Part shown: positions 442-23,477 of the stretch, in pieces
Layout: every line of letters begins with the position of its first letter
Numbering within the stretch: position 1 is the first letter of the stretch
Assembly: GCA_007117695.1 (NCBI GenBank)
Contig: SKFZ01000009.1
Span: 1 to 35,033, forward strand
Direction: 5' to 3'
Source of the DNA: Bacilli bacterium
Lineage (GTDB): Bacteria > Bacillota_I > Bacilli_A > RF39 > UBA660
Length of the DNA stretch: 35,033 nt
The notes under the pieces: model-generated
What the model saw: the letters and a program-made list of their open reading frames with translations, nothing else
The model's database searches: none
Told to the model about the DNA's origin: nothing
Made by a program: the position numbers and the translations under genes

Positions 442-473
442 AAAAAGAACTTTAAAAAAGTTCTTTTTTTTAA
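440..473. terminator. Probable bidirectional rho-independent terminator (AAAAAAAGAACTTTAAAAAAGTTCTTTTTTTT)
   Basis: AAGAACTTT/AAAGTTCTT stem flanked by A and T tracts between convergent genes. Confidence 0.75.
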
Positions 474-1114
474 TTACATTCATCCACTACAATAGTTCTG
501 ATTATAATTCTAATAATATCTTGATTTTCAACTTTGTAACTAGCATAATATGTTCCTGCGTTATCTAGATTATTTAAATCAATAGTATTTCCATAATAAT
601 CAAAATATGCCACTTCATATTCACCAATAAAATTCCCTTGATAATCAGTTGCATAAACACCTGGATCATTAAAGTTTGAGTTTAAACATAAATTCAAAAT
701 ATTAGGCCCATTTAATCTAATTAAAGGAGCGTTTTCTACATCGTAAGTTAACTCATTAAACTCTTCCATTACAAAAGCTTTAACTGCAATATCATCTTTA
801 ACTACTTTTATTAAAGTTCTAGGATCAAACCTTTCATCTGTAATAGGGTTTTTAATATTATTTTCAATATAACCTTCGAACTCTAATTGATTTAAACTTA
901 TAAACATAGCAGAGCCAGTCTTCAAACTAACTTGGAGCATTTTATCCGTATAATAACTTTTAGATGCCAATTCAATATTTCTAATCTGACTTTTATATGC
1001 ACTGTTTTTATAATTTGAAATGCTATTTTCAATAACAGGTATTACTAATATTGAAATTAGTGATAAAATTACGACAATTCCTACTAATTCTACCAAAGTA
1101 AATCCTTTTTTCAT
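470..1114 (-). CDS. Type IV prepilin-like protein with C-terminal Ig-like (DUF5011-type) domain
   Basis: MKKGFTLVELVGIVVILSLISILVIPV class III signal; C-terminal 'PLIRLNGPNILNLCLNSNFNDPGVYATD...AGTYYASYKV'. ORF track starts at 1132; likely ATG at 1114. Confidence 0.8.
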   Translation of the reverse strand: MKKGFTLVELVGIVVILSLISILVIPVIENSISNYKNSAYKSQIRNIELASKSYYTDKMLQVSLKTGSAMFISLNQLEFEGYIENNIKNPITDERFDPRTLIKVVKDDIAVKAFVMEEFNELTYDVENAPLIRLNGPNILNLCLNSNFNDPGVYATDYQGNFIGEYEVAYFDYYGNTIDLNNLDNAGTYYASYKVENQDIIRIIIRTIVVDECN

Positions 1115-1121
1115 ACAATCC

Positions 1122-1340
1122 CTACTCAACATTAAAATCTTCTAATTCATTATTTTCTTTTACAATCTTAGTTACTTTTTCTTCTGCTTCATCTAACTTT
1201 TTTTGACAAGATTTTGCAAGCTTCATAGCTTCAGTATATTTGTCAATTGCCGAATCTAAGTCTAAATCACCGTCTTCTAACTCTTTTATAATTTCCTCTA
1301 ATTTACTTAACTCATCCTCTAATTTAACTTTTTCACTCAT
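1122..1340 (-). CDS. xseB: Exodeoxyribonuclease VII small subunit
   Basis: Sequence pattern (LEEIIKELEDGDLDLDSAIDKYTEAMKLAKSCQKKLDEAEEKV); adjacent to xseA. Confidence 0.95.
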   Translation of the reverse strand: MSEKVKLEDELSKLEEIIKELEDGDLDLDSAIDKYTEAMKLAKSCQKKLDEAEEKVTKIVKENNELEDFNVE

Positions 1341-2595
1341 AATTTACCTCCTTTACAAGTGTATTAACATTTCCATCTTTAAATTTAATTGTAATTTTAT
1401 CATTGATTTGTAAATCTTTTATTTTTACAACTTTATCATCTTTCTTAACAATAGTATAACCTCTTTTTAAGGTATTGAGTGGATTTAATATATTCAACTT
1501 ATCAATCTTATTGTTAAGCGAGTTATGATAATCTTTAGTTATTAATTCTGGTTTTTCAATAATATAACTTTTTATAATGTTGTTATAAATATTATGCAAT
1601 GAATTTTTTTTATTTATTATAAGTTGATTTAATATCTCTACATACTGATCTTTTTGTTGTTGCTTATTTTGATATAAAACAAAAGGATTTTTTAAAATAT
1701 AATGATCTTTATAACTTATAAAAACATTTTGTATGTATTTTAATTTATTTTCAATTATTTTATTGGCCCTAATTTTAACATTATCTATATTAGTTAAAAT
1801 GTTGATAAAATTAGGAGCAACAATTTCCGCGGCGGCTGTAGGTGTTGGTGCTCTTTTATCTGCCACAAAATCACTAATTGTAAAATCAACCTCATGGCCT
1901 ACTGCACTAATAATTGGTGTTTTAGCCTCAAATATAGCATACGCTACATCTTTCTCATTAAAGCTCCACAAATCCTCAATGGAGCCCCCACCACGCCCTA
2001 AAATAATTACATCCAATCTAAATTGATCAGCTTTTTTAATAGCACTAACAATTGATTCATGAGCATTTTTACCTTGAACAAGACTTGGGAACAAATAAGT
2101 TTCAGCAAACGGATACCTTCTTTTTAATGTTGTTAATATATCTTTTACTGCTGCCCCATTCTCTGCTGTAATAATACCAATCTTGTTTGGTATTTTAGGT
2201 AATTCTTTTTTATTTTCTTCTTTAAAAAGGCCTAACCCATCTAATTCTTTTTTCAAGTTTTCAAAAGCCACATGAAGACTTCCTAATCCATCCTCTTTCA
2301 TGTCTTCTATATAAATTTGATAGTTTCCTGTAACTTCATAAACTGAAACTCTACCTATTACTAATACAGTTTGTCCATCTTTTGGAGTGAAAGTTAATCT
2401 TTTTGTCGAGCCTTTAAACATTACAGCACTAACTCTAGCATTTTCATCTTTTAATGAAAAATATAAATGCCCTGTTGTTCCTTTTAAATTTGATATTTCG
2501 CCTTTCAAAAAAACAGTTGATAAGTTTTCATCTGTATCAAATTTGTGTTTCAAATATTTGTTTAAAGCACTAACTGTTAAGTATTTATTTTCCAT
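1333..2595 (-). CDS. xseA: Exodeoxyribonuclease VII large subunit
   Basis: OB-fold N-terminus, 'IGIITAENGAAVKDILTTLKRRYP', 'ILGRGGGSIEDLWSFNEKDVAYAI', 'SAVGHEVDFTISDFVADKRAPTPTAAAE'. Confidence 0.97.
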   Translation of the reverse strand: MENKYLTVSALNKYLKHKFDTDENLSTVFLKGEISNLKGTTGHLYFSLKDENARVSAVMFKGSTKRLTFTPKDGQTVLVIGRVSVYEVTGNYQIYIEDMKEDGLGSLHVAFENLKKELDGLGLFKEENKKELPKIPNKIGIITAENGAAVKDILTTLKRRYPFAETYLFPSLVQGKNAHESIVSAIKKADQFRLDVIILGRGGGSIEDLWSFNEKDVAYAIFEAKTPIISAVGHEVDFTISDFVADKRAPTPTAAAEIVAPNFINILTNIDNVKIRANKIIENKLKYIQNVFISYKDHYILKNPFVLYQNKQQQKDQYVEILNQLIINKKNSLHNIYNNIIKSYIIEKPELITKDYHNSLNNKIDKLNILNPLNTLKRGYTIVKKDDKVVKIKDLQINDKITIKFKDGNVNTLVKEVNYE

Positions 2596-2603
2596 TATAT
2601 CAC

Positions 2604-3005
2604 CTACTTATTATGGTAAACTTTATCTAAAACACTATTAATCATTTTTCTAACTTCATCATCACTATACATCTTAGCAAGTTCAATCGCCTCATTAATA
2701 CAAACAATGTCTGGAGTTTCTGTATATGTTAATTCAAAAATACCCATTTTTAAAATTGCTTGATCAGTATAACCTAATCTGTCTATTGTCCAATCTTTTA
2801 AGTATTTATTTGCAATTTCATCGATTTCCTTTTCATGAGTAACTACACCATATACAACTTCTTTTACAAATTCATTTTCCATTTCTAAGACTTCTTTTAT
2901 AACTTCTTCAATGTCATATTTCATATTGTTTTTTCTATATACATTTATTTGATAAAGAATTGTCATTATTTTATTTCTAAGTTCACTTCTTGTTAATTTT
3001 TTCAT
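2604..3005 (-). CDS. nusB: Transcription antitermination factor NusB
   Basis: 'TRSELRNKIMTILYQ', 'AILKMGIFELTYTETPDIVCINEAIELAKMYSDDEVRKMINSVLDKV'. Confidence 0.93.
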   Translation of the reverse strand: MKKLTRSELRNKIMTILYQINVYRKNNMKYDIEEVIKEVLEMENEFVKEVVYGVVTHEKEIDEIANKYLKDWTIDRLGYTDQAILKMGIFELTYTETPDIVCINEAIELAKMYSDDEVRKMINSVLDKVYHNK

Positions 3006-3047
3006 ATTATCACCACAATAATTATAGCACTTAAGTTATTAAAAGTA

Positions 3048-3077
3048 AAAGAAAAACATTACTTCTGTAATGTTATT
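3048..3077 (-). terminator. Rho-independent terminator downstream of the 3073-3615 gene
   Basis: AACATTAC-AGAA-GTAATGTT stem followed by TTTCTTTT on the minus strand. Confidence 0.75.
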
Positions 3078-3615
3078 TTTTTTCCATATTTTTAAAATAT
3101 TCTTTAGCCTCATCTAAATAATTCAAATAGTGATGTCTTTTCAATGATTCTGGAACTTCAGCTTTAAGAGCATCTCTAATTAATGTTAATTTTTTAAGAA
3201 TAATGTTAACTTCTTCTACTTTTTTTCTGTATTTTTCAAAAATTAATTCATACCAAAATTTAAAAAAATAACTTATGAACAAAAAAGTAACAATGAAAGA
3301 AATGATAGTTGCTATATTAACTATATTGTCTTCTAAATAAAATACTACGCCAAGCAATGTATTAAAAATAAAATTAAATACTAAAAATGACATAACAAGA
3401 AGAACAACATTAATAACAAATAAAGCAAGTCCCGCAAAGAAGCTGCTTAATTTTCTTTTTTTAGCTTCCGTTTGCACTATAAGTTTGAAATCAAGAAGAA
3501 CTTCAAATTGTTCTTTTTCTTCCATTTTTTCTACACTTATTAAAACTTTATTTAATTCGTTTTCTAAATTATCAATTCTTTTAGTTTTAATAAAATTTAT
3601 TAAATCTTTAATCAC
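3073..3615 (-). CDS. Membrane protein with two central TM segments, unknown function
   Basis: GTG start with GGTGAT SD and TGATATAAT promoter; charged ends flanking hydrophobic segments. Confidence 0.75.
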   Translation of the reverse strand: MIKDLINFIKTKRIDNLENELNKVLISVEKMEEKEQFEVLLDFKLIVQTEAKKRKLSSFFAGLALFVINVVLLVMSFLVFNFIFNTLLGVVFYLEDNIVNIATIISFIVTFLFISYFFKFWYELIFEKYRKKVEEVNIILKKLTLIRDALKAEVPESLKRHHYLNYLDEAKEYFKNMEKK

Positions 3616-3659
3616 ATTATCACCACTTAAATTATATCATAAAAATATGTATTTTAATA

Positions 3660-5480
3660 TTAATCTCTTAAATAAACAGGAGTAACATCGAAGGCTGATA
3701 CCGCAACATTTACATTGGCTGCATAATTATCTATCTCTACATCACCTTCACCATAATTGTTACGCCTAAAAGTCCATGTTCCAATATCTGTTACACTATT
3801 TGGAATAAATACGCTTGTAATTTCATTATCTATAAAAGTACTATTTCCAATTGTAAGTAAATTGTTTGATAATACTACTGTTTCAATATAATTATCTCGA
3901 AAAGAATGTGATCCAATCGATAAAACACTATTTGGAATAGTAACTGTTGTCAATTCATTATTAGAAAACGCACTATCTTCAATTTCTACCAAATTGTTTG
4001 ATAAAGTAAGTGAGCTAATAATGTTTTCTCTAAAAGCGTGCTCCCCTATTGATGTAATTGAGTTGGGTATAATTATTTCTGATATATTATTTCTTGCAAA
4101 AGCATATCTTGGTAATGTTGTTAATAAAGAATTTATTGATACATTAGTTATTTCATTTCTATGAAAAGCTTCATTTCCAAGAGATGTTAAATTATTAGGA
4201 AGATCTACACTAGTGATTTCATTATCTCTAAAAGCAACAGTTTCAATATTAGTTAAACTACTTGGAAAGTCCACACTAGAAATTTTGTTGTTAGCAAAAG
4301 CACCAAATTTTATATCAGTTAATGTACTAGGCAATGAAATGCTTTGAATCTGATTAATATGAAATGATGTAGGACCTATCACCTCAACACCTTCTTCAAT
4401 TATTAGTGTTTCAATCAAGTTATTTCTAAATGAATTATCTTCAATAATTTCTATGTTTCCAGGAATAGTAAGTGTTGTAAGTAAATTAGTGTGAAAAGCA
4501 TTAGTTCCAATTTTATTTAGTGTGCTTGGAATATTTAAAGTGTTTATATGATTTTCTCTAAAAGCAAAGTCATCGATTTCTTCCAATGAACTAGGCATAC
4601 TAAAAGATTCAATAACATTTAAATAAAATGATGCAACACCAATTCTCTCTAAACCATTTGTTAACGATAATGTGGAAATATTATTTTCTCTAAATGCATG
4701 ATCATCAATATTAATTATATTACTTGGAATACTTACATTTGTTAAATTATTATTTCTAAACGCACCAAAACTTATCTCATTTATGGTATTTGGTATATCA
4801 ATATTTTCTAATTCATTATACGCAAAAGCAAAACTTCCAATTGAAGTAATATTGTTTGAAAGATTAACTGATGGAATACTATTTGTACTGAATGCATGTG
4901 TTTCTATTTCAGTTATAGTTGATGGCAAAACTAAATAAGTAAGCCCCTTATCACTAAATGCCTCTTCACCTATTTTAAAAACCTCTTCACCATCAATATG
5001 CGATGGTATAATAACAGATGATATACACCCAGTTTCATTAGTATTATAGTTTGTTATAACGCCCTCACTAAACTCAAAACAAGATTCAGACATTAAAGTA
5101 ATATTAGTTAAATCACAAGTTTCATAATCAGTTGATTCAGTTATTTCATTCCCGATTTTAAAATAACATTTATTATTAAATTCTAATGCAAGGGCAATAC
5201 TTTCATCTGGCAAAACAACAACTTCTCCTGAGTCTGGTCGATTACCTGAATAATCTAGCTCGTCTAATATGTTCTCATTAAAATTTATTGAATTATTATT
5301 TATTTGTACTCCAGAGTAATATATTTCACCAGCTCTTTGTATGTTATTAACGCTTTCAAAATTAGCCTTGTCTCTAGAGTTATTTATTGCATCCATAACA
5401 TTTGGAGTTGCTATTAACGCGATTAATCCTATTACAATTATCACTGCAAGTAATTCTATTAATGTAAAACCTTTTTTCAT
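3660..5480 (-). CDS. Type IV prepilin fused to BspA-type leucine-rich repeat domain (18 x 22 aa)
   Basis: MKKGFTLIELLAVIIVIGLIALIATPNVMDAI class III signal; tandem 'IPNSITSIGEHAFRENIISSLT'-type repeats. ORF track starts at 5489; SD AAGGTG supports ATG at 5480. Confidence 0.88.
   Translation of the reverse strand: MKKGFTLIELLAVIIVIGLIALIATPNVMDAINNSRDKANFESVNNIQRAGEIYYSGVQINNNSINFNENILDELDYSGNRPDSGEVVVLPDESIALALEFNNKCYFKIGNEITESTDYETCDLTNITLMSESCFEFSEGVITNYNTNETGCISSVIIPSHIDGEEVFKIGEEAFSDKGLTYLVLPSTITEIETHAFSTNSIPSVNLSNNITSIGSFAFAYNELENIDIPNTINEISFGAFRNNNLTNVSIPSNIINIDDHAFRENNISTLSLTNGLERIGVASFYLNVIESFSMPSSLEEIDDFAFRENHINTLNIPSTLNKIGTNAFHTNLLTTLTIPGNIEIIEDNSFRNNLIETLIIEEGVEVIGPTSFHINQIQSISLPSTLTDIKFGAFANNKISSVDFPSSLTNIETVAFRDNEITSVDLPNNLTSLGNEAFHRNEITNVSINSLLTTLPRYAFARNNISEIIIPNSITSIGEHAFRENIISSLTLSNNLVEIEDSAFSNNELTTVTIPNSVLSIGSHSFRDNYIETVVLSNNLLTIGNSTFIDNEITSVFIPNSVTDIGTWTFRRNNYGEGDVEIDNYAANVNVAVSAFDVTPVYLRD
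3741..4928 (-). repeat. 18 tandem 66-bp units encoding 22-aa BspA-like LRRs
   Basis: Consensus (I/L)PxxhxxIxxxAFRxNxIxxhx repeated in register in the translated ORF. Confidence 0.85.
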
Positions 5481-5536
5481 AAAAAACACCTTATCCTTAT
5501 TTTAAAAGTATATAGTATATGATAATAATTTTCAAA

Positions 5537-5567
5537 TTAAAAAAATAGAAAGTTAACTTTCTATTTT
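5537..5567 (-). terminator. Rho-independent terminator with perfect 13-bp arms (AAAATAGAAAGTT/AACTTTCTATTTT)
   Basis: Perfect palindrome then T-rich tract on minus strand, overlapping the TAG stop of the 5561-5941 gene. Confidence 0.8.
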
Positions 5568-5941
5568 ATTATATATTTCTCTGCTTCCCCTTGGTATAGT
5601 TTAACAAATGTCATAATATATAAATAAATTATCATTACAAACAATAAGATCCAACCAAATATTGGCACAATAAATAATATTAACCATATATATGGTGATA
5701 AATAATATTCGCTTCCGGCAATATCAAGTTTTTTAGCGGTCACTGCTAACATTTGAAAGTTTAAAACATTAAGCATTACTGCAAAAGGAAATAATAATAT
5801 TAAACCTATTAACCAATTTTTCCAATTGAAATACCAAGAATCTTCTTTAAAACAATCAAGCATTGCGGCAAGTAATATAGGGCCTCCCATTGCATATAAC
5901 AGTATCCAAAACCAAAAATATTCTCTTTTTAATAAAATCAT
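5561..5941 (-). CDS. Small multi-pass membrane protein, unknown function
   Basis: Hydrophobic ORF; GGAG SD; TGATATAAT at 5961-5966. Track start 5950; ATG at 5941 better spaced. Confidence 0.7.
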   Translation of the reverse strand: MILLKREYFWFWILLYAMGGPILLAAMLDCFKEDSWYFNWKNWLIGLILLFPFAVMLNVLNFQMLAVTAKKLDIAGSEYYLSPYIWLILFIVPIFGWILLFVMIIYLYIMTFVKLYQGEAEKYIIK

Positions 5942-5966
5942 TTTCATCACTCCTAAAAGTATTATA

Positions 5967-8507: not shown

Positions 8508-8529
8508 AGTAATCACCTAAATAGATTAT

Positions 8530-8562
8530 ACAAAAAAAAATGAAATAAGTCTATTATTTCAT
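8530..8562 (-). terminator. Rho-independent terminator downstream of the S16 protease gene
   Basis: TGAAATAA-TAGAC-TTATTTCA stem followed by TTTTTTTTT on the minus strand. Confidence 0.75.
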
Positions 8563-9528
8563 CTTTAAATTTAATTTATCAATTGCCTCAATAATACTTG
8601 AAACATATATGATTTCAGTTTGAATTGAAAAATCTTCAACTACTTTTTCAGATTCCTCTTTATTCTCATAAGGTAGTATAAACAAGTCAGCGTTATTGTC
8701 ACCACCGATTAATTTGTGTTTGATGCCTCCAACTTTCAAAACATCTCCATCTTTAGTTATTTCACCAGTAGCATATATATTTATAAATAACTCTTCTTGT
8801 GTATATGTATAATACATCGAAAGTGCTGTAGCAAGCCCCCCAGATGATCCACTTACTCTTCTTTGTTCATTAATTTCAAACCCGACATCTGTGTTTATTT
8901 CATAATACTCTGAACCTATTATCCCAACTAAATATTGTTCACGTTCATCATCATAATAACGCTTTCCAGTTATTTCAACTTCTTTCTCATCTCTTAATAC
9001 GGTAATATTAAATTCTTCTTCATCATCTATATCACCTATAGCTTCATAAAAATCATCAAAGTTATTAATTATCCTATCATTTACTTTTTTTATTACGTCT
9101 TCTTCTTTCAATTCGAAGTTACTTTCTTCGCTTACAAAAGCAATAGTAAAATTTTCATTATCTATGCTATATTCAATACCTTCATAGTCTAAAAGCCATC
9201 TAAGCGCTCTATAATAAGTTTCATTTACCATGTTTCTACCTATTTCTGATACTATCTCATACTCATCATCTCTAAAAAAGCTTTCCTTATACTGAAAAAG
9301 GTCTATCCTATCATCAAATTTACTTCTAATATAATAACCTAATGTTGCCCCTTTCGTAAGAACATAAGGAACATATATGCTTTGCTCTTTAGTACTTGTA
9401 TAATCATATGCTTCACTTATTAAACTTCCTCTTCCAGGAGTACTAACTTTATACCTTGGTATTGGAAGTAATAAAATTAATATGATTATTAATATAATGT
9501 TTATAATTTTTAATTGTTTTTCACTCAT
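8554..9528 (-). CDS. YlbL-like membrane-anchored PDZ/Lon-type (S16) serine protease
   Basis: N-terminal TM; 'VSGSSGGLATALSMYY' Ser box and 'VGGIKHKLIGG' Lys box of the S16 dyad. Confidence 0.85.
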   Translation of the reverse strand: MSEKQLKIINIILIIILILLLPIPRYKVSTPGRGSLISEAYDYTSTKEQSIYVPYVLTKGATLGYYIRSKFDDRIDLFQYKESFFRDDEYEIVSEIGRNMVNETYYRALRWLLDYEGIEYSIDNENFTIAFVSEESNFELKEEDVIKKVNDRIINNFDDFYEAIGDIDDEEEFNITVLRDEKEVEITGKRYYDDEREQYLVGIIGSEYYEINTDVGFEINEQRRVSGSSGGLATALSMYYTYTQEELFINIYATGEITKDGDVLKVGGIKHKLIGGDNNADLFILPYENKEESEKVVEDFSIQTEIIYVSSIIEAIDKLNLKMK

Positions 9529-9547: not shown

Positions 9548-10939
9548 CTAATTATTTAAAATACATCGAATGGAGTTACCAACAGATTGTGAGACTATTG
9601 ATCGGTTTATTTCATCACTATCAGAAAATAAACTTCTAGTCCATACATTATCATCATTAGCTAACGATGATGTTAACCACGAATTTTGTTGTCCTGCAAA
9701 TATTAATCCAATAGTAGGTGATCTATATCCTGAAGGTATTGCATTAAATGCAATATCATTACTTCCATCCCAATCAATTTCCGACTTTAACATTTCACCT
9801 TCGGTTGTTCCTCTCAATCCTGTTTCATCTAAATCTATTTCTGACAACCCTAAAAATGTTTCCATTTCTTTAAAATCATCATCCGATGGAATTCTAAAAC
9901 CAGCAGGGCATATACCTTCAGCACCTTCTTCATTAGAACCATCCATAGCTAACTCCCATTGATATAATACTTCCTCTTCAATCCCTGACATATAACTTCC
10001 TTGGTTTGAACCCTCATTTGGCCCATGAATTCTACATGCATTATAAGGTTCTGAAGAATCAAAGTCCGCGTTTAAACATTCAGTTGTTGTATATGCAAGA
10101 TTTTCAGCAAACCAACATTGTTCACCAATTCTAGTAATTTTGTAAGTATTACCATCTCTATAATCAATTATTGTTCCGCTGCATTCATCAATTATTTCAA
10201 CCGTTCTTGTTTTTATATCAACAACTTCATCATCAATTCTAAAAATATATTCTAATTCGTATACACCATAAGTTTCATTATCAACTTCGCCAACAACTTC
10301 TACTCGTGGATCGTTTTCTATTAAATCATTGTCACCCTCAATGGTGTACCAACCTGGCTCAGTATATTGATAAACTTTCATGTTTGAAGAACCTTTCAAT
10401 AAAACCGCCACTTCTTGATCATTATACCCATCAAAAACAACATCCTCTATTGAGGTGTTTCTGCTGTTGAAAGGGTATAAGATATTAACACCATAGTTTG
10501 TATCAAAAAAATTATGATTTATAGGCACTTTTACTATTAAAACAGAGTCTAACTTAGCTTCTGAAACACCATCTGTTTTCTCTACTCTAATATCAACATC
10601 ATTAAACCTGCTACCAGATACTAGTTCAGTTGAATAATCACCATAACTAAATATATGGTTACTAACATCTATTACTAATCTGGCATTAGAACCATCACTA
10701 TATATAAAATTCAAACAGTTTCTACCACATTTTAATACGGCTTCTAAATTTTTATTGTATAAATCTTCATTTATTTTCGAACTAATTATTGTTTGTTTAT
10801 TTAAAAGTTGAGTTCTTATCCCACTAGAAACGTATACATCTCTTAGTGATAGCAATACTTGAAAAAGCAAACTAACAATTACAAATGTTAATGTTACTGA
10901 GACAATTAACTCTACTACTGTAAACCCTTTTTTATTCAT
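9548..10939 (-). CDS. Type IV prepilin with Ig-like linker domain and C-terminal FISUMP domain
   Basis: MNKKGFTVVELIVSVTLTFVIVSLLFQVLLSL class III signal; C-terminus 'DYRDGNTYKITRIGEQCWFAENLAY...YQWELAMDG...ICPAGFRIPSDDDFKEMETFLG...GYRSPTIG...WTRSLFS...SIRCI'. Confidence 0.88.
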   Translation of the reverse strand: MNKKGFTVVELIVSVTLTFVIVSLLFQVLLSLRDVYVSSGIRTQLLNKQTIISSKINEDLYNKNLEAVLKCGRNCLNFIYSDGSNARLVIDVSNHIFSYGDYSTELVSGSRFNDVDIRVEKTDGVSEAKLDSVLIVKVPINHNFFDTNYGVNILYPFNSRNTSIEDVVFDGYNDQEVAVLLKGSSNMKVYQYTEPGWYTIEGDNDLIENDPRVEVVGEVDNETYGVYELEYIFRIDDEVVDIKTRTVEIIDECSGTIIDYRDGNTYKITRIGEQCWFAENLAYTTTECLNADFDSSEPYNACRIHGPNEGSNQGSYMSGIEEEVLYQWELAMDGSNEEGAEGICPAGFRIPSDDDFKEMETFLGLSEIDLDETGLRGTTEGEMLKSEIDWDGSNDIAFNAIPSGYRSPTIGLIFAGQQNSWLTSSLANDDNVWTRSLFSDSDEINRSIVSQSVGNSIRCILNN

Positions 10940-10950
10940 AATTCCCCCTA

Positions 10951-11466
10951 CTAATATACTATTACGGTTGCAAAAGTACCATCATCATACTCAACAATTA
11001 GCCTATATTTACCAATTTCATCCTCGTAATTAATATATTTAATGAAATCTTTTTTACTCTCACTTATAAAAGTAATATTTCTAAGTTCACTAATAACATT
11101 TTCAGTGTTTTCATCTACTAACATCAATGTTTTAACTTCTGATACCGAGTAAAGCAGTTGACAATATTCTATTTCGGCAGCCAACTCTGCATTTAAATTA
11201 CCAACTAAATTACATGTTGATAAATTAACATAAGGAAGGCCTGAACTATTTAACTGATCTCTTGCTTCAAAAAAAACATTCTCTTCGATAAAATCTCTTA
11301 TATTTGCTAACCTATAAAGACCATCTACTGTATTATAGTTGAAAGTTCTACTGTAATTTGCTTCTATTCTTTGAAATTGCACAAACAAAAAAATCAATGT
11401 TGAAACGACAAACACAGTTACAATTAATGTTTCAATTAACAAAAATCCTTTATTGTTAAATTTCAT
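10951..11466 (-). CDS. Type IV prepilin/minor pseudopilin (ComG-like)
   Basis: MKFNNKGFLLIETLIVTVFVVSTLIFLFVQFQRIE class III signal; GGAGG SD; adjacent to pilin gene and divergent from comGA-like gene. Confidence 0.8.
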   Translation of the reverse strand: MKFNNKGFLLIETLIVTVFVVSTLIFLFVQFQRIEANYSRTFNYNTVDGLYRLANIRDFIEENVFFEARDQLNSSGLPYVNLSTCNLVGNLNAELAAEIEYCQLLYSVSEVKTLMLVDENTENVISELRNITFISESKKDFIKYINYEDEIGKYRLIVEYDDGTFATVIVY

Positions 11467-11559: not shown

Positions 11560-12915
11560 GTGATAAGAAAATATGATTTTGATAAAACACCTGTTGTAGA
11601 GGTTGTTAACAGTATTATCATTGATGCTGCAAAAAATGGAGCTAGTGATATCCACTTTGATCCAATGGAAAAAGAAATGAAAGTCCGTATTAGAATAGAT
11701 GGTGTTTTAATAGATTACACAAATATACCAAATGCGGTTGTTAAAAACCTAGTTACTAGAATTAAAATTTTAGCGTCTATGAACATTACTGAATCTAGAT
11801 TACCACAAGATGGTGCTATAAAAACAACATTACAAGAGTTGGATTTAGACCTTCGTGTTTCCTCTCTTCCTACTAATGAAGGTGAAAAGATAGTTATTCG
11901 TTTACTTGATTATACTATGAGTAAAGCGGGGCTTGAAACTTTAGGACTTAGTGACTCAAATTTGAAAAAAGTTTTATCTATGATAAAAACACCAAGTGGT
12001 ATTATATTAGTAACCGGGGCAACTGGTACTGGTAAATCTACTACTGTTTACTCTATTTTACATAGACTAAATAAAGAAGATACTAACATTATTACTGTTG
12101 AGGATCCAATAGAAATGGATATAGCAGGAATTAACCAGGTTCAAACAAATAGTGAAATCGGCTTAACATTTGCCTTCGCACTTAGATCTATTTTACGTCA
12201 AGACCCCAACATTATAATGATTGGTGAGATCCGTGATACAGAAACTGCTAAAATTGCTGTTCGTGCATCTATTACCGGGCACTTAGTTTTATCAACTCTA
12301 CATACTAACAACTCTCTTAACACTATAGAGCGTTTACTTGATATGGATGTTGAAAGATACTTACTTGCAAGTGCTTTAACAGGAATTGTTTCACAAAAGC
12401 TTGCTAGAAAGCTATGTGATCATTGTAAAACTAAGAGGCCTACTAATGATTATGAAAAAGGATTATTCAAACGTACATTAGGTGTTGATGTTTTAGAACT
12501 TTACAATGCTGAAGGTTGTGAAAAATGTGGTAATGGTTATATGGGCCGTACATCAATACATGAAGTTTTATTAATAAATGAAGGAATTAGAGATGCTATA
12601 AGTAATAATTTATCTAAAGATAAATTAAGAACATTAGTATATAAAGCCGATGTTACTACTCTACTTCAAGATGGACTAGAAAAAGTTATGAGTGGTCTTA
12701 CATCATTTGAAGAAATGTTGAAATTAATTGAATTAGATAATGATGTTGTTGATAGTGCAAATGATTCATTTGACTTAAAAGAAGCCTTACAAGTTTCTAA
12801 TATGGCTAAGACAGATAGCACTAATACTAACGAACCAGCACAAAAAGAAAGTAACAATACGCCTGAGCCAACCCCAAAAACAGAATATGACGATGATGTT
12901 GAAGTTTTGATTTAA
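11560..12915 (+). CDS. comGA: Type IV pilus/competence assembly ATPase (PilB/GspE/ComGA family)
   Basis: 'ASDIHFDPMEKEMKVRIRIDG', Walker A 'VTGATGTGKSTTVYS', 'MIGEIRDTETAKIAVRASITGHLVLSTLHTN', paired CxxC (CDHC...CEKC). GTG start behind AAAGGGG. Confidence 0.95.
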   Translation: MIRKYDFDKTPVVEVVNSIIIDAAKNGASDIHFDPMEKEMKVRIRIDGVLIDYTNIPNAVVKNLVTRIKILASMNITESRLPQDGAIKTTLQELDLDLRVSSLPTNEGEKIVIRLLDYTMSKAGLETLGLSDSNLKKVLSMIKTPSGIILVTGATGTGKSTTVYSILHRLNKEDTNIITVEDPIEMDIAGINQVQTNSEIGLTFAFALRSILRQDPNIIMIGEIRDTETAKIAVRASITGHLVLSTLHTNNSLNTIERLLDMDVERYLLASALTGIVSQKLARKLCDHCKTKRPTNDYEKGLFKRTLGVDVLELYNAEGCEKCGNGYMGRTSIHEVLLINEGIRDAISNNLSKDKLRTLVYKADVTTLLQDGLEKVMSGLTSFEEMLKLIELDNDVVDSANDSFDLKEALQVSNMAKTDSTNTNEPAQKESNNTPEPTPKTEYDDDVEVLI

Positions 12916-14366: not shown

Positions 14367-14411
14367 TTCTCCTCTTGACTTAAACATTATACAATTAAAT
14401 TATGAAAAAGA

Positions 14412-14434
14412 AAAACTCATATTAATGAGTTAAT
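14412..14434 (-). terminator. Rho-independent terminator after the Zn-peptidase gene
   Basis: AACTCATTAATATGAGTT followed by TTTCTTTTTC on minus strand. Confidence 0.65.
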
Positions 14435-15122
14435 CTCTACCTCTTAACATTATTAAAAGTCTCAGTATATTTAGCAGTGTTGCGATCATTCCAGCAACAT
14501 ATGTAAGTGCTGCTGCACCTAACATGTTTTCAACTTTAACTTTTTCATCTTCAGTAATAAAATTATGTTTCTCTAACTCTGCTCTGGCACGTTTAGATGC
14601 ATCAAATTCAACTGGTAATGTAACTAGTTGAAAAACGAATGTAGCAAGTAATATATAAATACCTATTAACAAATATCCGGTTAACCCGGCGATAAAGGCA
14701 ACAAATATACTAAAATAACCCAAGTAAGTAACAAGCCTAACAACAGGAACTAACATAGCTCTAATTCTCATAAAAATATAGCCATCTTTATCTTGTATAG
14801 CATGTCCCACTTCATGAGCTGCAACCGAAACTGCTGCAATACTATTTGCATTATAAATATGTTCAGAAAGCCTAACGACTTTTCTCGATGGATCATAGTG
14901 ATCTGTAAGTTCTCCCTTTGTTTGAACCACTCTAACATTAGATAATCCATTTTTATCTAAAATTTCTCTTGCAACCGCAAGGCCTGTGTATTTTGTTTTA
15001 ACTTTTTTGTACATCCCATAAGATGATTTTATTTTAAATTGGGCATAAGTTGTAACGATTATTGCTAAAACAAACAATGATATAGTAACAACATTTTCAA
15101 GCCCTAATAGTGCTAAGTTCAT
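14430..15122 (-). CDS. YugP-like membrane zinc metallopeptidase
   Basis: HEVGHAIQ zinc motif, 'LPVEFDASKRARAEL', 'AALTYVAGMIATLLNILRLL'. Track start 15155; AGGAGG supports ATG at 15122. Confidence 0.9.
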   Translation of the reverse strand: MNLALLGLENVVTISLFVLAIIVTTYAQFKIKSSYGMYKKVKTKYTGLAVAREILDKNGLSNVRVVQTKGELTDHYDPSRKVVRLSEHIYNANSIAAVSVAAHEVGHAIQDKDGYIFMRIRAMLVPVVRLVTYLGYFSIFVAFIAGLTGYLLIGIYILLATFVFQLVTLPVEFDASKRARAELEKHNFITEDEKVKVENMLGAAALTYVAGMIATLLNILRLLIMLRGRD

Positions 15123-15132
15123 GATATCCCTC

Positions 15133-15891
15133 CTAAGATAATATTGTGATAACACTCATAAAGTCTACTTGAAGTAAAAATAACATGAGTGCAGCGATTG
15201 CCAAAAATGGTCCGAATGGAACTATATGCTCTTTGTTTTTATTAATAGTAATTATTGAATAAGGGAGTGCAATAAATGAACTTAAAAATATAGTTATAAT
15301 TGCAATTGGAAACCCCAAATACATACCAAAAATAAACATAAGCTTTATATCGCCACCACCCATAGATTCTTTTTTAAAAACAACATCTCCAAACTTCTTT
15401 AAAAGAAGCATGAATAGTGCGGCAACGAAACCATTGAATAAAACCATGAAAAATGATACATCACCTGCATATAATGAATATATTAGCTTTGCAATAAGCG
15501 CAAATATAATCACCTCATCAGGTATAATCATAGTTTGATAATCACTAATGAATATTATAATCAATGATGAAACAAAAATCAATCCGATAATTAATTCTAT
15601 ACTTAGTCCAAAAACTAAATATGTAAAAACAAACAAAGCACCTGTTATAAACTCAAAAATAGGATAGAATGCCCCTATTTTAGTTTTGCAATTTTTGCAC
15701 TTACCTCTTTGAATTAACCAAGAAAGCACAGGAATCAACTCAATTGGAGTCAATCTGTGCTTACAAATAGGACAATTGGATGGTGGATGAACTATCGATT
15801 CTTCTTTAGGTAATCTATACCCTACTACATTGAAAAATGAACCGAATACTAACCCTAAAATAAATAATGTAATTATAATTATGATTTCCAT
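15133..15891 (-). CDS. pilD: Type IV prepilin peptidase (PilD/ComC)
   Basis: 'GSFFNVVGYRLPKEESIVHPPSNCPICKHRLTPIELIPVLSWLIQRGKCKNCKTKIGAFYPIFE', 'DYQTMIIPDEV', 'SMGGGDIKLMFIFG'. Confidence 0.96.
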   Translation of the reverse strand: MEIIIIITLFILGLVFGSFFNVVGYRLPKEESIVHPPSNCPICKHRLTPIELIPVLSWLIQRGKCKNCKTKIGAFYPIFEFITGALFVFTYLVFGLSIELIIGLIFVSSLIIIFISDYQTMIIPDEVIIFALIAKLIYSLYAGDVSFFMVLFNGFVAALFMLLLKKFGDVVFKKESMGGGDIKLMFIFGMYLGFPIAIITIFLSSFIALPYSIITINKNKEHIVPFGPFLAIAALMLFLLQVDFMSVITILS

Positions 15892-15899
15892 AATTCCTC

Positions 15900-17858
15900 C
15901 TAACTTTGAATTGTTTGATACATATTAAACATTGGAATAATTATAGCAAGAACAATTCCTCCAACTACCACTGTTAAGAATATGATCAAAAATGGCTCAA
16001 TAAATGTTTTTAATCTAGTAACTGAGTTTGAGTGTAACTCCTGGTAATAGTCAGCAACTTTTCTCATCATTTCAGGAAGTTGTCCAGTTTTTTCACCAGT
16101 TACAATCATCTCATATGCAGGCACTGGAAATGCCCAGTGTTCTTTAAATGATTTAGATATTTTTTCACCTTTCGCAAGGTTTGTAATAGTATCTAAAATA
16201 AGCATTTTAAATATTTCATTATTAGTAATTTTATTTAAAATCTCCATACTATCAGTAATGAAAACATTATGCGACAAAAGAGATGAGAATGTTTTAGAAA
16301 ACATTGTAATCTCATTGTATATAATAACATCACCAAATGCAGGCATTTTCATCAGTATCCACTGAACCATTGTTTTAAATAACTTTACATTTGAGTATAA
16401 GTATTTAAAAATCATTACAAAGACAATAAAGCCTAGAACAATATACAATGTATTATTTTGCAAGAAATCACTTGTTCTCATAATAAACAATGTAAACTCA
16501 GGTATTTGTGAACTATCCATCGATTCATAAATTTGAACGAATCTAGGAATAACAAATATTAAAATAAAGCCTATTACACCAACTGAAATAGTAAATATAA
16601 TAATTGGATATAACATTATTGTAAGCATTTGTTTTCTGGTTTTATCTATTTCTGTAAAATATTCACTCATATCGTCTAAAACTTCGGCAAGCTGTCCTGT
16701 CATTTCAGCAGTCTTTATCATATTTATTAATATTTGTGGGAATGTATTTCCTTGTTTAGTAAGGGCTTCACTAAACGAATCACCCATAGTCAAATCATAA
16801 ATGATTGACCTAAATACTCTTTGATAACTTTTTTTAGGAAATTGATTTGTCAAAATTTTAAGTGAGTCAACAAGCGGTATTCCCGCCTTTATGTAAGTTG
16901 ACAATTGTGTTAAAAAGAATATTAAGTCTTTATTTTTTATTTTAATAGACGTACCACTATTACCATATAAAGCTCTTATCATCTTATTAGTTCTAATACT
17001 ATAAACTTCCATGTCTTCAGATAATAAAAATGAATGTACTTCAACTCTCGAATAAGCATCAAAGTATCCCTTTACTACTTTACCATCTGCATTTTTAGCT
17101 ACATATTCAAACAGTTGTTTAGTTTTACTCTTTTCTTCTTTATCCTCATCAAATGAAGACAATAGTGCTTCTTTTTCAACTTCTAATCTGTTTTTACGAT
17201 TTTTAATTAATGTTAAATTATTATATTGTTTTTTTATACTATTTTTTAAAGTGTATGGCCCTTTTATTAAAGCTTCTAAAAAACTATTAATATAATCTCC
17301 TAATGACTTTTTCCCAAGGTCAATTTGATCGTTTTTATAATTATTTAACTCTTTTGCTTTGAGTTCTTCTTCTCTTTGTTTTTTCTTCTCTTCGATTAAA
17401 TCTTTCTTTTTGGCAGCCAATCTTTTTTGACGCTCTTCATTTTCTTTTCTTTTTCTTTCGATTTCTGCTTCTTTTTCTTTCCTCATTAAAGCTTTAACTT
17501 CTTGATTCTTTTTGTATGCAAAAATGAACTTCTCAAAGATTTTATAATAAACTCTATAAACAAAATAGCAAGAGTATACAAACCCTCTAAATACAAAGTC
17601 CAAAAATGAGTTAATATAATCAAATAATATACCCAAAAACAAAAACATATAAATTAATAAAATTCTTGCTCCTTTTAAAAAGTATATTAAAATATTTGTT
17701 AGTGTATTAATTGTTGTATACGATAAAACGTATACAAACAAGAAAAAACCTACTGAAAAATACTTAATAAATCTAAAAGGCATGTGCAAAAGAAAATTTA
17801 AACTTTTGTAAACAAAAATAAATGGTAATAAATACTTTGGTTTGCCCACAAAAAACAC
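15900..17858 (-). CDS. comGB: Type IV pilus inner-membrane platform protein (PilC/ComGB/GspF) with ~250-aa N-terminal TM and coiled-coil extension
   Basis: Two T2SSF repeats ('FLTQLSTYIKAGIPLVDSLKIL', 'MFSKTFSSLLSHNVFITDSMEILNK') and C-terminal 'RLKTFIEPFLIIFLTVVVGGIVLAIIIPMF'; track start 17864 (TTG), SD favours GTG 17858. Confidence 0.93.
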   Translation of the reverse strand: MFFVGKPKYLLPFIFVYKSLNFLLHMPFRFIKYFSVGFFLFVYVLSYTTINTLTNILIYFLKGARILLIYMFLFLGILFDYINSFLDFVFRGFVYSCYFVYRVYYKIFEKFIFAYKKNQEVKALMRKEKEAEIERKRKENEERQKRLAAKKKDLIEEKKKQREEELKAKELNNYKNDQIDLGKKSLGDYINSFLEALIKGPYTLKNSIKKQYNNLTLIKNRKNRLEVEKEALLSSFDEDKEEKSKTKQLFEYVAKNADGKVVKGYFDAYSRVEVHSFLLSEDMEVYSIRTNKMIRALYGNSGTSIKIKNKDLIFFLTQLSTYIKAGIPLVDSLKILTNQFPKKSYQRVFRSIIYDLTMGDSFSEALTKQGNTFPQILINMIKTAEMTGQLAEVLDDMSEYFTEIDKTRKQMLTIMLYPIIIFTISVGVIGFILIFVIPRFVQIYESMDSSQIPEFTLFIMRTSDFLQNNTLYIVLGFIVFVMIFKYLYSNVKLFKTMVQWILMKMPAFGDVIIYNEITMFSKTFSSLLSHNVFITDSMEILNKITNNEIFKMLILDTITNLAKGEKISKSFKEHWAFPVPAYEMIVTGEKTGQLPEMMRKVADYYQELHSNSVTRLKTFIEPFLIIFLTVVVGGIVLAIIIPMFNMYQTIQS

Positions 17859-17898
17859 CGCCAATCCCCTACTTTATCGTTATTACAATTATAACATA

Positions 17899-17935
17899 AA
17901 AAAAAGAAAAAAATAACTTATTTTTTTCTTTTTTT
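17899..17935 (-). terminator. Very A/T-rich terminator hairpin (18-bp arms) overlapping the end of trmK
   Basis: AAAAAAAGAAAAAAATAA / TTATTTTTTTCTTTTTTT perfect arms. Confidence 0.6.
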
Positions 17936-18622
17936 AGCCAAACAAACTAATATTTTGTATTTTGCTTTTTTAAATACTTTCGTATACGGTATATTTTTAT
18001 ATGTTTCTTTTAAATTATCGTGTACATATTTCATATAATCTTTATACCTTTTTGTATACTTACCAAAATAAAGTTCTGAAAAACTATATGTTTCTTTTTT
18101 TAATTTTTCATCACGTTTTTTTTCATCATCATTTTTGTATTTTTCTTTTCTAGCTCTAATAAACCTTATTAAAACATAGTATTTACCCTTTTCAAAAACG
18201 ACAAATTCAGTATCAATTTTATATTTGTTTTTATACATGTATTTTCTTAGTTTATACAAATTATTGTTACTTTGAATAATAATTGTTCTAGCTGCTTTAA
18301 AATCACTATTTTCCAATATTTTAATTATAGTATTAGTACCCATCCCAGAGATGACAACATTATCAGACTCTCTTAATGTGACATTTTCAAGTCCGTCATT
18401 CAACATTATTTCTAAATTAGGCACAACATATTTCTTTTTGTTAGCCTTAGCAGCCTTTATAGCATTTTCGTTAACATCAATTGCTAATACACTAGCAACT
18501 CTCTCATTTTTTAAAAGATAAATACCTAATAGAGCATGATCACACCCAACATCAACAACCCTTTTTTTAGTAATTACTAAATTAGAAAGTTCATATAACC
18601 TTTTAGATAACATATTATTCAC
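17918..18622 (-). CDS. trmK: tRNA (adenine(22)-N1)-methyltransferase TrmK
   Basis: '[26 protein letters not shown]', '[16 protein letters not shown]', '[23 protein letters not shown]'-like region; downstream of rpoD. Confidence 0.93.
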
Positions 18623-19694
18623 CCAAATAATCTTTCAATTTCTTAGCACGTGATGGGTGTCTTAGTTTTCTAAGAGCCTTCGCCTCTATTTGTCTAATAC
18701 GTTCTCTTGTTACGCCAAACATTTGACCAACTTCTTCTAAAGTCCTACCTCTTCCATCTTCAAGTCCAAACCTTAACTTTACTACTTTTTCCTCACGCTC
18801 TGTTAAAGTTTCTAACACACTACCAATTTCATCTTTTAACATCTCATTTGTAGCATACTCCTCAGGAGACAAATTTCTTTCATCTGGCACGAAATCACCT
18901 AAATGTGAATCCTCTTCTTCACCAATTGGTGTTTCTAAAGAAACTGGTTCTTGACTAATTTTATAAATATCTCTTATTTTTTCTACAGGAACTTCCATTT
19001 TTTTAGCAAGTTCTTCTTCAGTTGGTTCTCTATCAAGTTCTAAAGTCATTTGTCTTTGGATTCTTGCAAGTTTATTAATTGTTTCAACCATATGAACAGG
19101 AACCCTAATTGTTCTTGCTTGATCAGCTATAGCTCTAGTAATGGATTGTCTTATCCACCATGTTGCATAAGTAGAAAACTTAAACCCTTTACCAACATCA
19201 AACTTTTCAACCGCTTTCATCAACCCAATATTACCTTCTTGAATCAAATCTAAAAATAGCATCCCACGACCAACATATCTTTTGGCAATACTTACAACTA
19301 ATCTTAAATTTGCTTCAGCAAGTCTACTTTTAGCACTCAAATCACCTGCGATAATTTGATCAGCTAAAGCTAATTCTTCATCCATCGACAATAGCTTTAT
19401 TTGACCTATTTCTTTTAAATACATTCTAACCGGATCGTCGATAGTTAAATTTTTAGTTAAAATTTCATCTGGTTCAACTTGTATCTTTTTTCCTTCTGCT
19501 TCTTCATCTGGTGCTACAACTTCAATTTTGTGCTCACCTAAAGCATCATAAAGTTCATCTAACGAATCAGCATCCAAATCAAGCCCTTTTAATGCTGTTG
19601 CTAACTCTTCATACGTTAACTTATTATCATTCTCAATTCCCAACTTAATTAATTCAGCTTTTCTCTCCCCAAACGTTTTTATTTCATTAATCAT
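18615..19694 (-). CDS. rpoD: RNA polymerase primary sigma factor
   Basis: Regions 1.2-4.2: '[21 protein letters not shown]', '[24 protein letters not shown]', '[20 protein letters not shown]', '[26 protein letters not shown]'. Confidence 0.98.
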
Positions 19695-21435
19695 TATTAT
19701 CTCTCCTCATTTTTAATTCTACTATCTCTTGAGCAACTTTTGCCTTCTCACTAGATGATCTACTATCTTTCAATTTTCTTTTAAGTAATTCAATAGAATA
19801 ATCTAAATTATAATCTTCAATTACTTTAATATAATCTTCAATTTCTTCTTTTGCATAATCTTTTTTTAAATTTAATCCGTTTAAAAAACCAATAGTTTTA
19901 ATTATTTCTTCATCTTCTATTTCTGTTATTAAATCAGCTTCATTAATATAATTGTTTTTTTTGTAAAAAATAATTATATGCTTTGCTAAATCACGAAACC
20001 TTTTACTTGGTAAACAGCTTACTTTTTTTAAATATGATTGAATAATCGAAACATCATTTAGCATATAATAAACTAAATTCATCTCTGCTTTTTCATATTT
20101 GCTATATTTTCTTTTAATAATTGGTTTTGAACTTGAAATATATGCTTCTTCTTTTTTTTCGTCTTTTTTTACTATTTTTGATTTTAAAAACTGTTTATCA
20201 AGTCCACTCTCTTCTGCAAGTTTATTAATTGAAACTTCAATTAATATATCATCATCAATTTTATTAATCGCTTGAGTTGCTAAGTTAACATATTTTGAAA
20301 GTCCATCGCTAGAATTCAAATCTAATGTCTTTTTATAGTGTTTTAATTTAAAATCAATTAGATCAGTAGGATTTTCAGTTAATTCAACAAAAGCTTCCTT
20401 ACCATACTTCTTAATATAATCATCAGGATCTAGGCCTTCTTCTATTTGAATGATTTTTGGTACTATATTGTTTTTAGTTAAAATATCAGCCGCACTAATT
20501 GTAGCGTTAACTCCAGCATCATCTGAATCAAAACATAAAAGAACTTCATTTGAAAGTCTTTTAATCAAATTTACGTGATCATTTGTAAATGCTGTTCCCA
20601 TTGTTGCAACAACATTCTTAACACCTGCATCATAGGCTTTAATAACATCCATAAAACCTTCCATTACAATGACTTTTTTATTTATTCTAGAATAATTTTT
20701 GCACCGATGATAATTATATAAAAGTTCTCCTTTTTTAAAAATATCGGTCTCTCTAGTATTAACATACTTGTTTGTACTTTGATTTTTATAATCTCTTCCG
20801 CTGTAAGCCACTACATTTCCATACAAATCCCAAAGCGGAAACATGATTCTATTATAAAACGCATCATACATTCCTTTTTCGTTTTTCAAAACTAATCCAC
20901 TTTTCAAAATGTTTTCATTATCGAATTCTTTTTTCAAAAGTAAATTAGTTAAACTGTCTTTTTCATTAAGTGATAATCCAATTTCAAATTCTTTTATAGC
21001 CTCATCACTTATTTCTCTATCTTTTAAATACTTTTTCGCATCCATACCCATTTTAGTATTTAAATTATTTTTAAAAAATTTATTTGAAATATCATATATT
21101 TTATAAACCGGATTTTCTTTCTCTTCTTTTCTAGTTACATCAATGTCGATATTAACTCCAGCTTTATCAGCGGCAATCTTAAGCGCTTCTTTAAAGTTTA
21201 TGTGCTCATAATCCATCAAAAAATTGAAAACATTTCCTGTCGCACCACAAGAAAAACATGTATAAATTTGCTTCTCTTCTGAAACACTCATACTAGGATT
21301 ATTATCATCATGAAAAGGACAAACGCCAAAATAATTTTTCCCTCTTTTAGTCAAGGAAACATATCCACTTATCAAATCAACTATGTTTATATTATTTCTA
21401 ATATTTTGAATTTCTTCTTTAGATACTATGCTCAA
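19687..21435 (-). CDS. dnaG: DNA primase
   Basis: CHC2 zinc finger '[40 protein letters not shown]', TOPRIM region '[14 protein letters not shown]...[12 protein letters not shown]'. Track start 21444; GGGAG spacing favours TTG at 21435. Confidence 0.96.
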
Positions 21436-21491
21436 ATAGATCACTCCCTAGTATAATATACGATACTAAAAACAAAATTCCTTTTTTTATA

Positions 21492-23477
21492 TCAAAAAAA
21501 TGTAAAAATTTCCATTTTTTCCTTAAATTTTATTAAAATCATCCCATTTCTACTCGTTTTATAATATTTATTTAAATTATTTAATACCTTCTTGCTAGGT
21601 AAATTATATAAATTATTTTTGGATGCAGAAATCAAACTTACTTTTGGGTTCAAATTTTTTAAAAACTTTTTCGAGCTACTAGTATTAGAACCATGGTGTG
21701 ATATTTTTAAAACATCTATATCTTTTAATCCATAATTTTTAAGTATTTTTTCTTCTTGTTTTTTATAAATATCACCTGTAAGTAAAACACTATAATTATC
21801 AAAAGTAATAAAGCATACTAAGCTATCTTCGTTTTCATCAGTATACACATCATTGATAAAGTTAAAAGTGTAATCATTAACTTTGATTTTGTACTTACTA
21901 ATATTTTTAACAGTCACACTTTTTTTAGTCGCTACATTAACAATTTTATTTTCTAAATAATTGTTTCCACCACTGTTTAAATAAACATTATTTACATCAA
22001 AGTTTCTTATAATGTTTGGTGCTTCTTTGGCGTGATCTAAGTGACCATGAGTAATTACTAAATAATCAATTCTATTAATACCTAAACTTTTTATAAAAGG
22101 AATAATAACATAATTGCTTAAATTATATTCATTATCATAAAAATGACCCCCTGTATCGAATAAAAAAACTTTGCTTGCTCTTGGCATTACAAATAAGATG
22201 CTTTCTCCCATGCCTACATCTATCATGTATAGTTTTGAATAATTTATAAAATAGTTACTGTTTTTGATTATTAAAATTATTAATATAGTTATCATAAAGT
22301 ACTTTATATTTGAACTTTTCACATATAAAAACAAAATAAAATAATATATTATAGTTAATAATATATTTGGTCTTTTAAATATAATTAAAAAAGAGTCATT
22401 GTTTAAATATGTAACTAGGTTTTCGAATAAGACAATTAAATAAGATAAAATATATTCATTTGAAAAAACAAAAGATAATACTGAAACAGGAAACAAAACT
22501 AAAGTGACAATTGGTATAAATATTAAGTTATAAATAAAAGATAATATGTTATATTCAAAAAAGTAATAAATAGTAATTGGAAAACTAGCTAAACTGGCAA
22601 CTAATGAAATGTTGAAGAGTTTTAAAAAATAGTTTTCATATTTTTTGTTGTATGAAAAAACTAATATATAAAAAGTCACAATAAATGAATAATAAAATGA
22701 TGGACTAAACAAATAATAAGGATTATAAAAAAGCATTATACTTAAAATAAAAATTAAAATATAATAATTTTTTAATTCAATTTTAAAAGTTTTTTTAAAA
22801 AATACTAATATAAATAATAAAGCAGCCCTGTAAACCGAAACCTTCATAATTAAAAACGAATACAGTAATAAAAAAATAGATACTAAAATATAACTATATA
22901 AACTTCTTTTAATGAATAGTTTTAAAATGCTCAGCAATATAAATGAAAAAAACATTACATGCATTCCAGAGATTGAAAATAAATGGCCAATACCCATTTT
23001 ATTATAATATTCATTACCAATGTTTTTGCCTAATATGAAAGTTTTTATGTAGTTTTCGTTCTCAAATCTACTACTTTTTTCATTCAAATAATTTTTCAAA
23101 AAATAAAGTTTTGAATCACTTTTAAGTATGGAAATATCATCTGTTGATACTGCATTAAAGATTTTCTTTGATTTTAAATATTTTTTATAACAAAAAACAT
23201 TAAAGTTTCTGCTTTCTCTAATTTCTGTTTTATCATTTTCTAAAAAAACCTTATCACCATAAATAAACTTGCTTGTATCAGAAGTATATACAATAAAGTT
23301 TTGGCTAGAATTTACTAAAATATAGTTTTCACTTATTTCATAAACAATGCCTACTATACTATCTTTTTTATACTCATGGTTTTTAAAATTAATAATTAAT
23401 ACAGAGTATACTATCGCAAAAAATAATATTATAAAGTATGTCTTTTTATATTGTAATAAGTTCCTTAAAGTTATTAT
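21492..23477 (-). CDS. comEC: Competence protein ComEC (DNA channel plus C-terminal MBL-like domain); N-terminus requires a non-canonical start
   Basis: 'GIGHLFSISGMHVMFFSFILL', 'VYRAALLFI', MBL 'DTGGHFYD...VITHGHLDHAKEA...LLTGDIYKKQEE...ISHHGSNTSSSKKFLKNLNP'. Track begins at TTG 23099, but the same frame is open to 23489 and encodes a ComEC-like N-terminus. Confidence 0.9.
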   Translation of the reverse strand: MITLRNLLQYKKTYFIILFFAIVYSVLIINFKNHEYKKDSIVGIVYEISENYILVNSSQNFIVYTSDTSKFIYGDKVFLENDKTEIRESRNFNVFCYKKYLKSKKIFNAVSTDDISILKSDSKLYFLKNYLNEKSSRFENENYIKTFILGKNIGNEYYNKMGIGHLFSISGMHVMFFSFILLSILKLFIKRSLYSYILVSIFLLLYSFLIMKVSVYRAALLFILVFFKKTFKIELKNYYILIFILSIMLFYNPYYLFSPSFYYSFIVTFYILVFSYNKKYENYFLKLFNISLVASLASFPITIYYFFEYNILSFIYNLIFIPIVTLVLFPVSVLSFVFSNEYILSYLIVLFENLVTYLNNDSFLIIFKRPNILLTIIYYFILFLYVKSSNIKYFMITILIILIIKNSNYFINYSKLYMIDVGMGESILFVMPRASKVFLFDTGGHFYDNEYNLSNYVIIPFIKSLGINRIDYLVITHGHLDHAKEAPNIIRNFDVNNVYLNSGGNNYLENKIVNVATKKSVTVKNISKYKIKVNDYTFNFINDVYTDENEDSLVCFITFDNYSVLLTGDIYKKQEEKILKNYGLKDIDVLKISHHGSNTSSSKKFLKNLNPKVSLISASKNNLYNLPSKKVLNNLNKYYKTSRNGMILIKFKEKMEIFTFF

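Follow-up and report, generated by a model that had tools for sequence, protein, structure and literature searches.

The 35,033-nucleotide (nt) stretch considered here (hereafter the window) is one 35-kb contig (C18, SKFZ01000009.1) of a metagenome-assembled Bacilli genome of 548 kb in 31 contigs, with completeness estimated at 81% and contamination at 0.7%. It encodes the predicted components of a competence-type pilus machine, namely an assembly ATPase, a platform protein and a prepilin peptidase, together with ComEA, ComEC and four class III prepilins. All of these had been named in a first-pass annotation made from the sequence alone, and Pfam models and motifs recover every one (Table 1), within the span 470-23477 that it gave, apart from comEA, most of which lies beyond 23477. 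The same annotation was right that the components form no comG-type operon: comGA and comGB lie apart and in opposite orientation, no comGA-GG operon occurs in the window, and pilD-comGB forms its own separate pair. Profile searches of the assembly found one T2SSE gene and one T2SSF gene, both in the window; at its 81% completeness the assembly yielded no canonical comGC-GG operon elsewhere and no second T2SSE, as a retraction ATPase PilT would be. The closest named relatives of ComGA come from metagenome genomes labelled Bacilli, Tenericutes or Mollicutes.

Table 1. Pilus and DNA-uptake genes predicted in the window, with residue ranges given within each protein
Position	Strand	Predicted product	Basis and remarks
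470..1132	-	Class III prepilin, 220 amino acids (aa), type-B module ('L..GyI...NP.T.e')	N_methyl E=0.003
3660..5489	-	Modular prepilin, 609 aa: type-A module (~1-125) and BspA-type leucine-rich repeat (LRR) solenoid	LRR_5 E=6.5e-91
9548..10939	-	Minor prepilin, slot J: module ~1-165, Ig-like ~178-250, FISUMP ~256-461	FISUMP E=1e-27; Ig-like E=4e-7
10951..11466	-	Minor prepilin, slot I, 171 aa, bare in this genome	Class III motif; N_methyl sub-threshold
11560..12915	+	comGA, assembly ATPase (ComGA/PilB-type)	Pfam T2SSE; Walker A GATGTGKST; zinc-type Cys pairs
15133..15891	-	Prepilin peptidase (A24)	GGGD and other aspartate motif; four N-domain cysteines
15900..17864	-	comGB, platform protein (ComGB/PilC-type)	Two T2SSF domains; TTG start uncertain
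21492..23489	-	ComEC DNA-import channel	Open frame of 665 aa
23446..24111	-	ComEA (SLBB and helix-hairpin-helix DNA-binding protein)	Pfam

Of the 53 window open reading frames of at least 60 aa, only these four show both a class III motif, with G(-1), F(+1) and E(+5), and the hydrophobic stretch of a helix after it, as compared to the 0.005 such prepilins per window expected from shuffled N-termini. Three of the four had been described as carrying large C-terminal ectodomains; the predicted LRR and Ig+FISUMP ectodomains are secure, but the Ig-like match at the C-terminus of 470-1132 is weak (E=0.008, under the Pfam cut-off). AlphaFold models of the two securely decorated proteins, which answer a check proposed with the original description, both have a long helix and a beta-sheet pilin-type fold preceding the ectodomain, and the sequences and models together place a predicted pilin globular module between the helix and the extra domain. 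In 3660-5489, helix 10-63 and strands 87-119 are followed by the solenoid, with per-residue confidence (pLDDT) of ~76-87 over most of the first 110 residues, and Foldseek matches the LRR part to BspA-type surface proteins (4fs7, E=1.3e-8). In 9548-10939, pLDDT is mostly >90 over the pilin fold to residue 165 and ~68-88 in the Ig region, which Foldseek matched to bacterial Ig-type folds, and the FISUMP region is without a resolved fold.

The window holds a small part of the repertoire. A genome-wide search with the N_methyl hidden Markov model, another of the proposed checks, gives 27 matches on 13 contigs (25 of them above the Pfam cut-off, the best at E=3e-11), and the sub-threshold 10951-11466 brings the total to 28 prepilins. 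This is a lower bound, since several contigs break off inside pilin genes; even so, at least 6.5% of the assembly consists of prepilin genes. The reported lack of a short ComGC-like pilin holds for the window but is not a feature of the system: short ComGC/GspG-like prepilins are encoded elsewhere in the genome, six in number and 135-143 aa long, including a tandem pair on contig C2. More than half of the prepilins carry a C-terminal surface domain. Outside the window these comprise FISUMP, LamG/LamG_3 (two secure, one borderline), LRR with Ig or DUF285 (1356 and 1122 aa), Ig-type repeats including Big_13/DUF7743 (1167 and 1109 aa), DUF285 (410 aa), GLUG (908 aa), a weak propeller-like match, and domains without a Pfam name. 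The added domains LRR_5, FISUMP, LamG_3, DUF285, Big_13/DUF7743 and GLUG are not specific to pilus biology, and no substrate-binding-protein domain was found among the significant ectodomain matches. The genome also has LRR_5 proteins not counted among the prepilins (L140, 6378-8485, end of contig C17): one is truncated where its contig stops, and another has an ordinary N-terminal membrane anchor and no prepilin motif; we therefore rejected the idea that LRR proteins here are always pilins.

Bare and decorated prepilins share the same pilin module. The N-terminal 135 residues place 22 of the prepilins in one homology group, within which two module types can be told apart by eye, A ('SG..P..G....G.i..AL...C') and B ('L..GyL....NP.tge'), each with bare members (135-143 aa) and decorated ones (up to 1356 aa). 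One pair with different tips, propeller-like (L030) and DUF285 (L031), is 78% identical at the nucleotide level along a 403-nt part of the pilin module; the proteins are 76% identical in the first 125 residues, followed by background similarity only. At one locus in a relative (L061), an LRR prepilin holds the place of 3660-5489, beside mutS and a homolog of the gene at 5561, and its module looks type-B where that of the window is type A. The pattern is most extreme in a relative with 62 prepilins (G107), where the sequences of the closest paralogues are 94-100% identical through most of their first ~450-600 nt, and the same pairs are only ~40-60% identical in the ectodomain and in 150 nt of either flank. 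Thus, the pilin module and not the gene neighborhood is what these genes have in common, which suggests gene conversion or recombination at the module. That genome also has arrays (L144 252-6310; L149 5412-8284) with six consecutive prepilin genes and modules up to 100% identical, whose proteins have coiled-coil-looking stalks and differing C-terminal tips, recalling phage tail-fibre design; PHROGs searches of the arrays gave weak hits, to long phage proteins with no assigned function, that do not allow interpretation.

The two prepilins beside comGA allow the same comparison at a fixed position. Among 80 comGA loci of other genomes, homologs of 10951 (slot I) and 9548 (slot J) are the next gene pair to comGA, on the opposite strand, in 56, while 9 loci end before the pair would be visible; the proposed synteny check thus bears out a dispersed layout that is family-wide. 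Counting the window, 17 of the 62 slot I proteins that could be scored carry an ectodomain, as do 8 of 56 at slot J; on a ComGA tree these require at least six and at least four changes, respectively. The relatives' slot I ectodomains are DUF285, DUF285 with LamG, ALK_LTK_GRD and DUF6273; those found at slot J are FISUMP, a glycine-rich ALK_LTK_GRD and DUF6273. Comparison of relatives accordingly shows predicted ectodomains to be present, absent or exchanged at both slots. The best named models are ComGD for slot I and ComGE/ComGF for slot J. No pilin reached the equivalog cut-offs of ComGC-GG (the best matches, to ComGC/D/E/F, fall far below), so we dropped the naming of these slots as particular ComG pilins.

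Prepilin expansion characterizes the family. N_methyl matches occur in 143 of 145 family genomes, with a median of 9 per genome. Prepilin density is highest of all 145 in the present assembly, 49 per Mb against a median of 8, and full searches of two relatives gave the 62 prepilins of G107 and 38 in G096; none of the sampled genomes of the class outside the family has more than 12. In G096, a 2250-aa open frame (L147, 1143-7895) begins like a prepilin and contains fn3 domains. Among the 145 genomes, those with more pilins tend to have fewer sortases (Spearman -0.27, P=9e-4, with no phylogenetic correction). The present genome has two sortases; given these and the weakness of the correlation, we rejected complete replacement of sortase anchoring.

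The DNA-uptake genes are unevenly retained. ComEC is found in 128 of the 145 genomes. DprA, which is important for transformation in other bacteria (PMC2216020, PMC6533540), was not detected in 144 of the 145, including the 81%-complete assembly studied here, by a search that did recover it from 10 named control genomes and from one relative. This makes it less likely that ordinary transformation is the main role, and DNA import, if active, is unlikely to serve transformation of the DprA-dependent kind. In the comEC frame the first ATG, GTG or TTG appears only at 23099, with none in the first ~130 codons; the start is therefore probably a rarer codon, overlapping the end of comEA.

Several other features of the locus deserve mention. 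An N-terminal extension of ~200 aa, hydrophobic and charged, precedes the usual N-domain of ComGB, and comGB frames in relatives are mostly of 573-754 aa; the extension could substitute for missing assembly proteins. Two small membrane proteins lie between pilin and housekeeping genes, one (3073-3615) without a Pfam match and the other (5561-5950) recurring beside mutS in relatives. The only second T2SSE copy examined, in genome G016 (L143, 68-2155), follows a MinD/CpaE-like gene, which suggests a Tad system in some relatives.

The reading we favor, and hold to be probable although well short of certain, is that the competence-type pilus machine is a platform for an adhesin repertoire of modular pilins. 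Such a reading agrees with the first-pass proposal of one pilus machine with scattered genes and pilins that carry extra domains. The single machine, whose genes for ComGA, ComGB and prepilin peptidase lie in the window, would process and assemble a large, dispersed set of pilins. Each of these has a class III leader and a pilin module of ~125-165 residues, defined by sequence and for two proteins also by AlphaFold, and in more than half of those in this genome one of the domains listed above is fused to the C-terminus. Bare short pilins would probably make up the filament shaft, and decorated ones may sit at the tip or sparsely along the shaft, by analogy with Streptococcus sanguinis PilB and PilC. 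The pilins adjoining comGA are conserved, weakly ComGD/E/F-like minor pilins that gain, lose or exchange ectodomains, as the comparison of relatives shows, and elsewhere the module may act as a homologous handle that permits ectodomain swaps, with recombination suggested by the identity profiles. One filament would likely present a variable set of adhesins that plausibly bind surfaces or particles, and any DNA import through ComEA and ComEC would probably be other than ordinary DprA-dependent transformation. In short, this gut-type bacterium probably uses its pilus machine to display changeable sticky proteins, and not only for DNA uptake.

Several points weigh against this reading. Filament, processing and binding are predictions from gene sequences, in organisms that appear uncultured. 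A profile search of the PDB with slot I, and Foldseek with both AlphaFold models, returned no pilin structure at a significant score, and model confidence is medium to low in the LRR and FISUMP regions. Many relatives have two or three T2SSE hits, and an 81%-complete assembly could miss a second machine. The pilin-sortase correlation is weak and lacks phylogenetic correction. Ectodomains of >1000 aa, to our knowledge, exceed any pilin module known from a filament.

Such sizes, up to 1356 aa here and 2250 aa in G096, and the distance of many prepilin genes from the machine genes would also fit display without filament incorporation, in which the class III leader and pilin helix serve as a processed membrane anchor or build a short assembly like the Sulfolobus bindosome, where a pilus machine handles large non-pilin proteins with class III leaders (PMC4371748). 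We nevertheless think this unlikely, as the decorated proteins retain, beyond leader and helix, the full pilin globular module that they have in common with bare pilins, and the LRR surface protein with an ordinary anchor indicates that display needs no pilin. Still less probable, in our judgment, is an ordinary competence pilus, serving mainly to bind and import DNA in natural transformation, with decorations that are minor embellishments. Its case lies in ComEA and ComEC within the same 24 kb, the wide retention of ComEC, and the preference of the slot I and slot J pilins for ComGD/E/F models, though far below cut-offs; yet DprA is almost uniformly undetected, as many as 62 prepilins per genome vastly outnumber the pilins of a ComGC-GG set, and the domains fused to them have known surface or binding folds instead of DNA-binding ones. 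We infer that adhesion is better supported as the main role than transformation. An artefact of chance motifs, unprocessed signal anchors, mis-assembly or contamination might be suspected in a metagenome-assembled genome with contigs ending inside pilin genes, but seems to us barely credible: shuffled N-termini, the scores of the N_methyl matches and the orthologous decorated slots in independent assemblies rule out chance motifs and mis-assembly, and the contamination estimate is low.

A more ambitious account joins these elements. The competence pilus would have been repurposed as a surface-display platform in a genome-reduced, uncultured family of Bacilli, with tens of modular pilins replacing part of the sortase-anchored proteome and the pilin module kept homogenized as a recombination handle for cassette-like swaps of ectodomains, i.e. 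receptor-binding tips; loss of DprA with retention of ComEC would mean that imported DNA is food or that ComEC has another role. As a whole this account is tentative, and we would sooner doubt it than rely on it. The scale of expansion and the module exchange extend beyond what the window alone shows. If true, they would reveal how far the strategy of grafting a domain onto a pilin can reach, taking up at least 6.5% of the assembled DNA of a very small genome for one small machine. The comGA-linked pair offers a natural series (bare, DUF285, lectin, FISUMP, glycine-rich) on the effect of minor-pilin ectodomains on binding, near-identical modules with unrelated tips suggest a mechanism of adhesin diversification that uses intact genes, and the retention of ComEC across a family in which DprA is undetected opens DNA uptake without transformation to direct test. 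We found no published report of the expansion, the minor-pilin-pair exchange or the ComEC/DprA split in these Bacilli, which is weak evidence given partial coverage of the literature; pili go unmentioned in a paper on related uncultured Bacilli orders.

The system resembles the Com pilus of Bacillus and Streptococcus in its single extension ATPase and platform protein with no retraction ATPase detected, its ComEA and ComEC, and its weakly ComGD/E/F-like minor pilins. It differs in that the genes are dispersed throughout the family instead of forming a comGA-GG operon, the pilins are expanded and decorated, DprA is undetected, and comGB has its N-terminal extension. Tad/Flp pili may be present in the relative with the second T2SSE (a probable TadA) and were not detected in this genome, whose system is instead of the ComG/PilB type. 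Large sets of class III proteins are known in archaea (PMC4371748), and these, together with the Sulfolobus bindosome, share with the present system many substrates per genome for few machines and large functional domains on class III leaders; in the bindosome the leader is carried by a substrate-binding protein, whereas here the pilin globular module is kept, in bare and decorated paralogues.

The closest likeness is to modular (bimodular) type IV pilins, in which a functional domain is grafted after the pilin module and presented on the filament, as with the S. sanguinis adhesins PilB (vWA) and PilC (lectin) (PMC8179133, PMC9934059). A survey of such pilins covers >1,200 proteins in 264 architectures, the most extreme having 860 residues, and has a LamG architecture in its top 15 (PMC8179133). 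The first-pass description of an under-described pilus type therefore does not hold: modular pilins are published and short pilins exist elsewhere in the genome, so this is a known kind of modular pilin and not a new pilus type. IPR026906 and IPR011871, also in the survey's top 15, we take to be LRR_5 and FISUMP. What sets the present system apart is its extent, with at least 28 prepilins in 0.55 Mb and 62 in a relative as compared to five pilins in the S. sanguinis pilus, and with single proteins of 1356 aa (here) and 2250 aa (in a relative) that surpass the extreme of the survey. Unlike in published modular pilins, ectodomains appear to be exchanged at conserved minor-pilin slots, and near-identical modules carry unrelated ectodomains within one genome.

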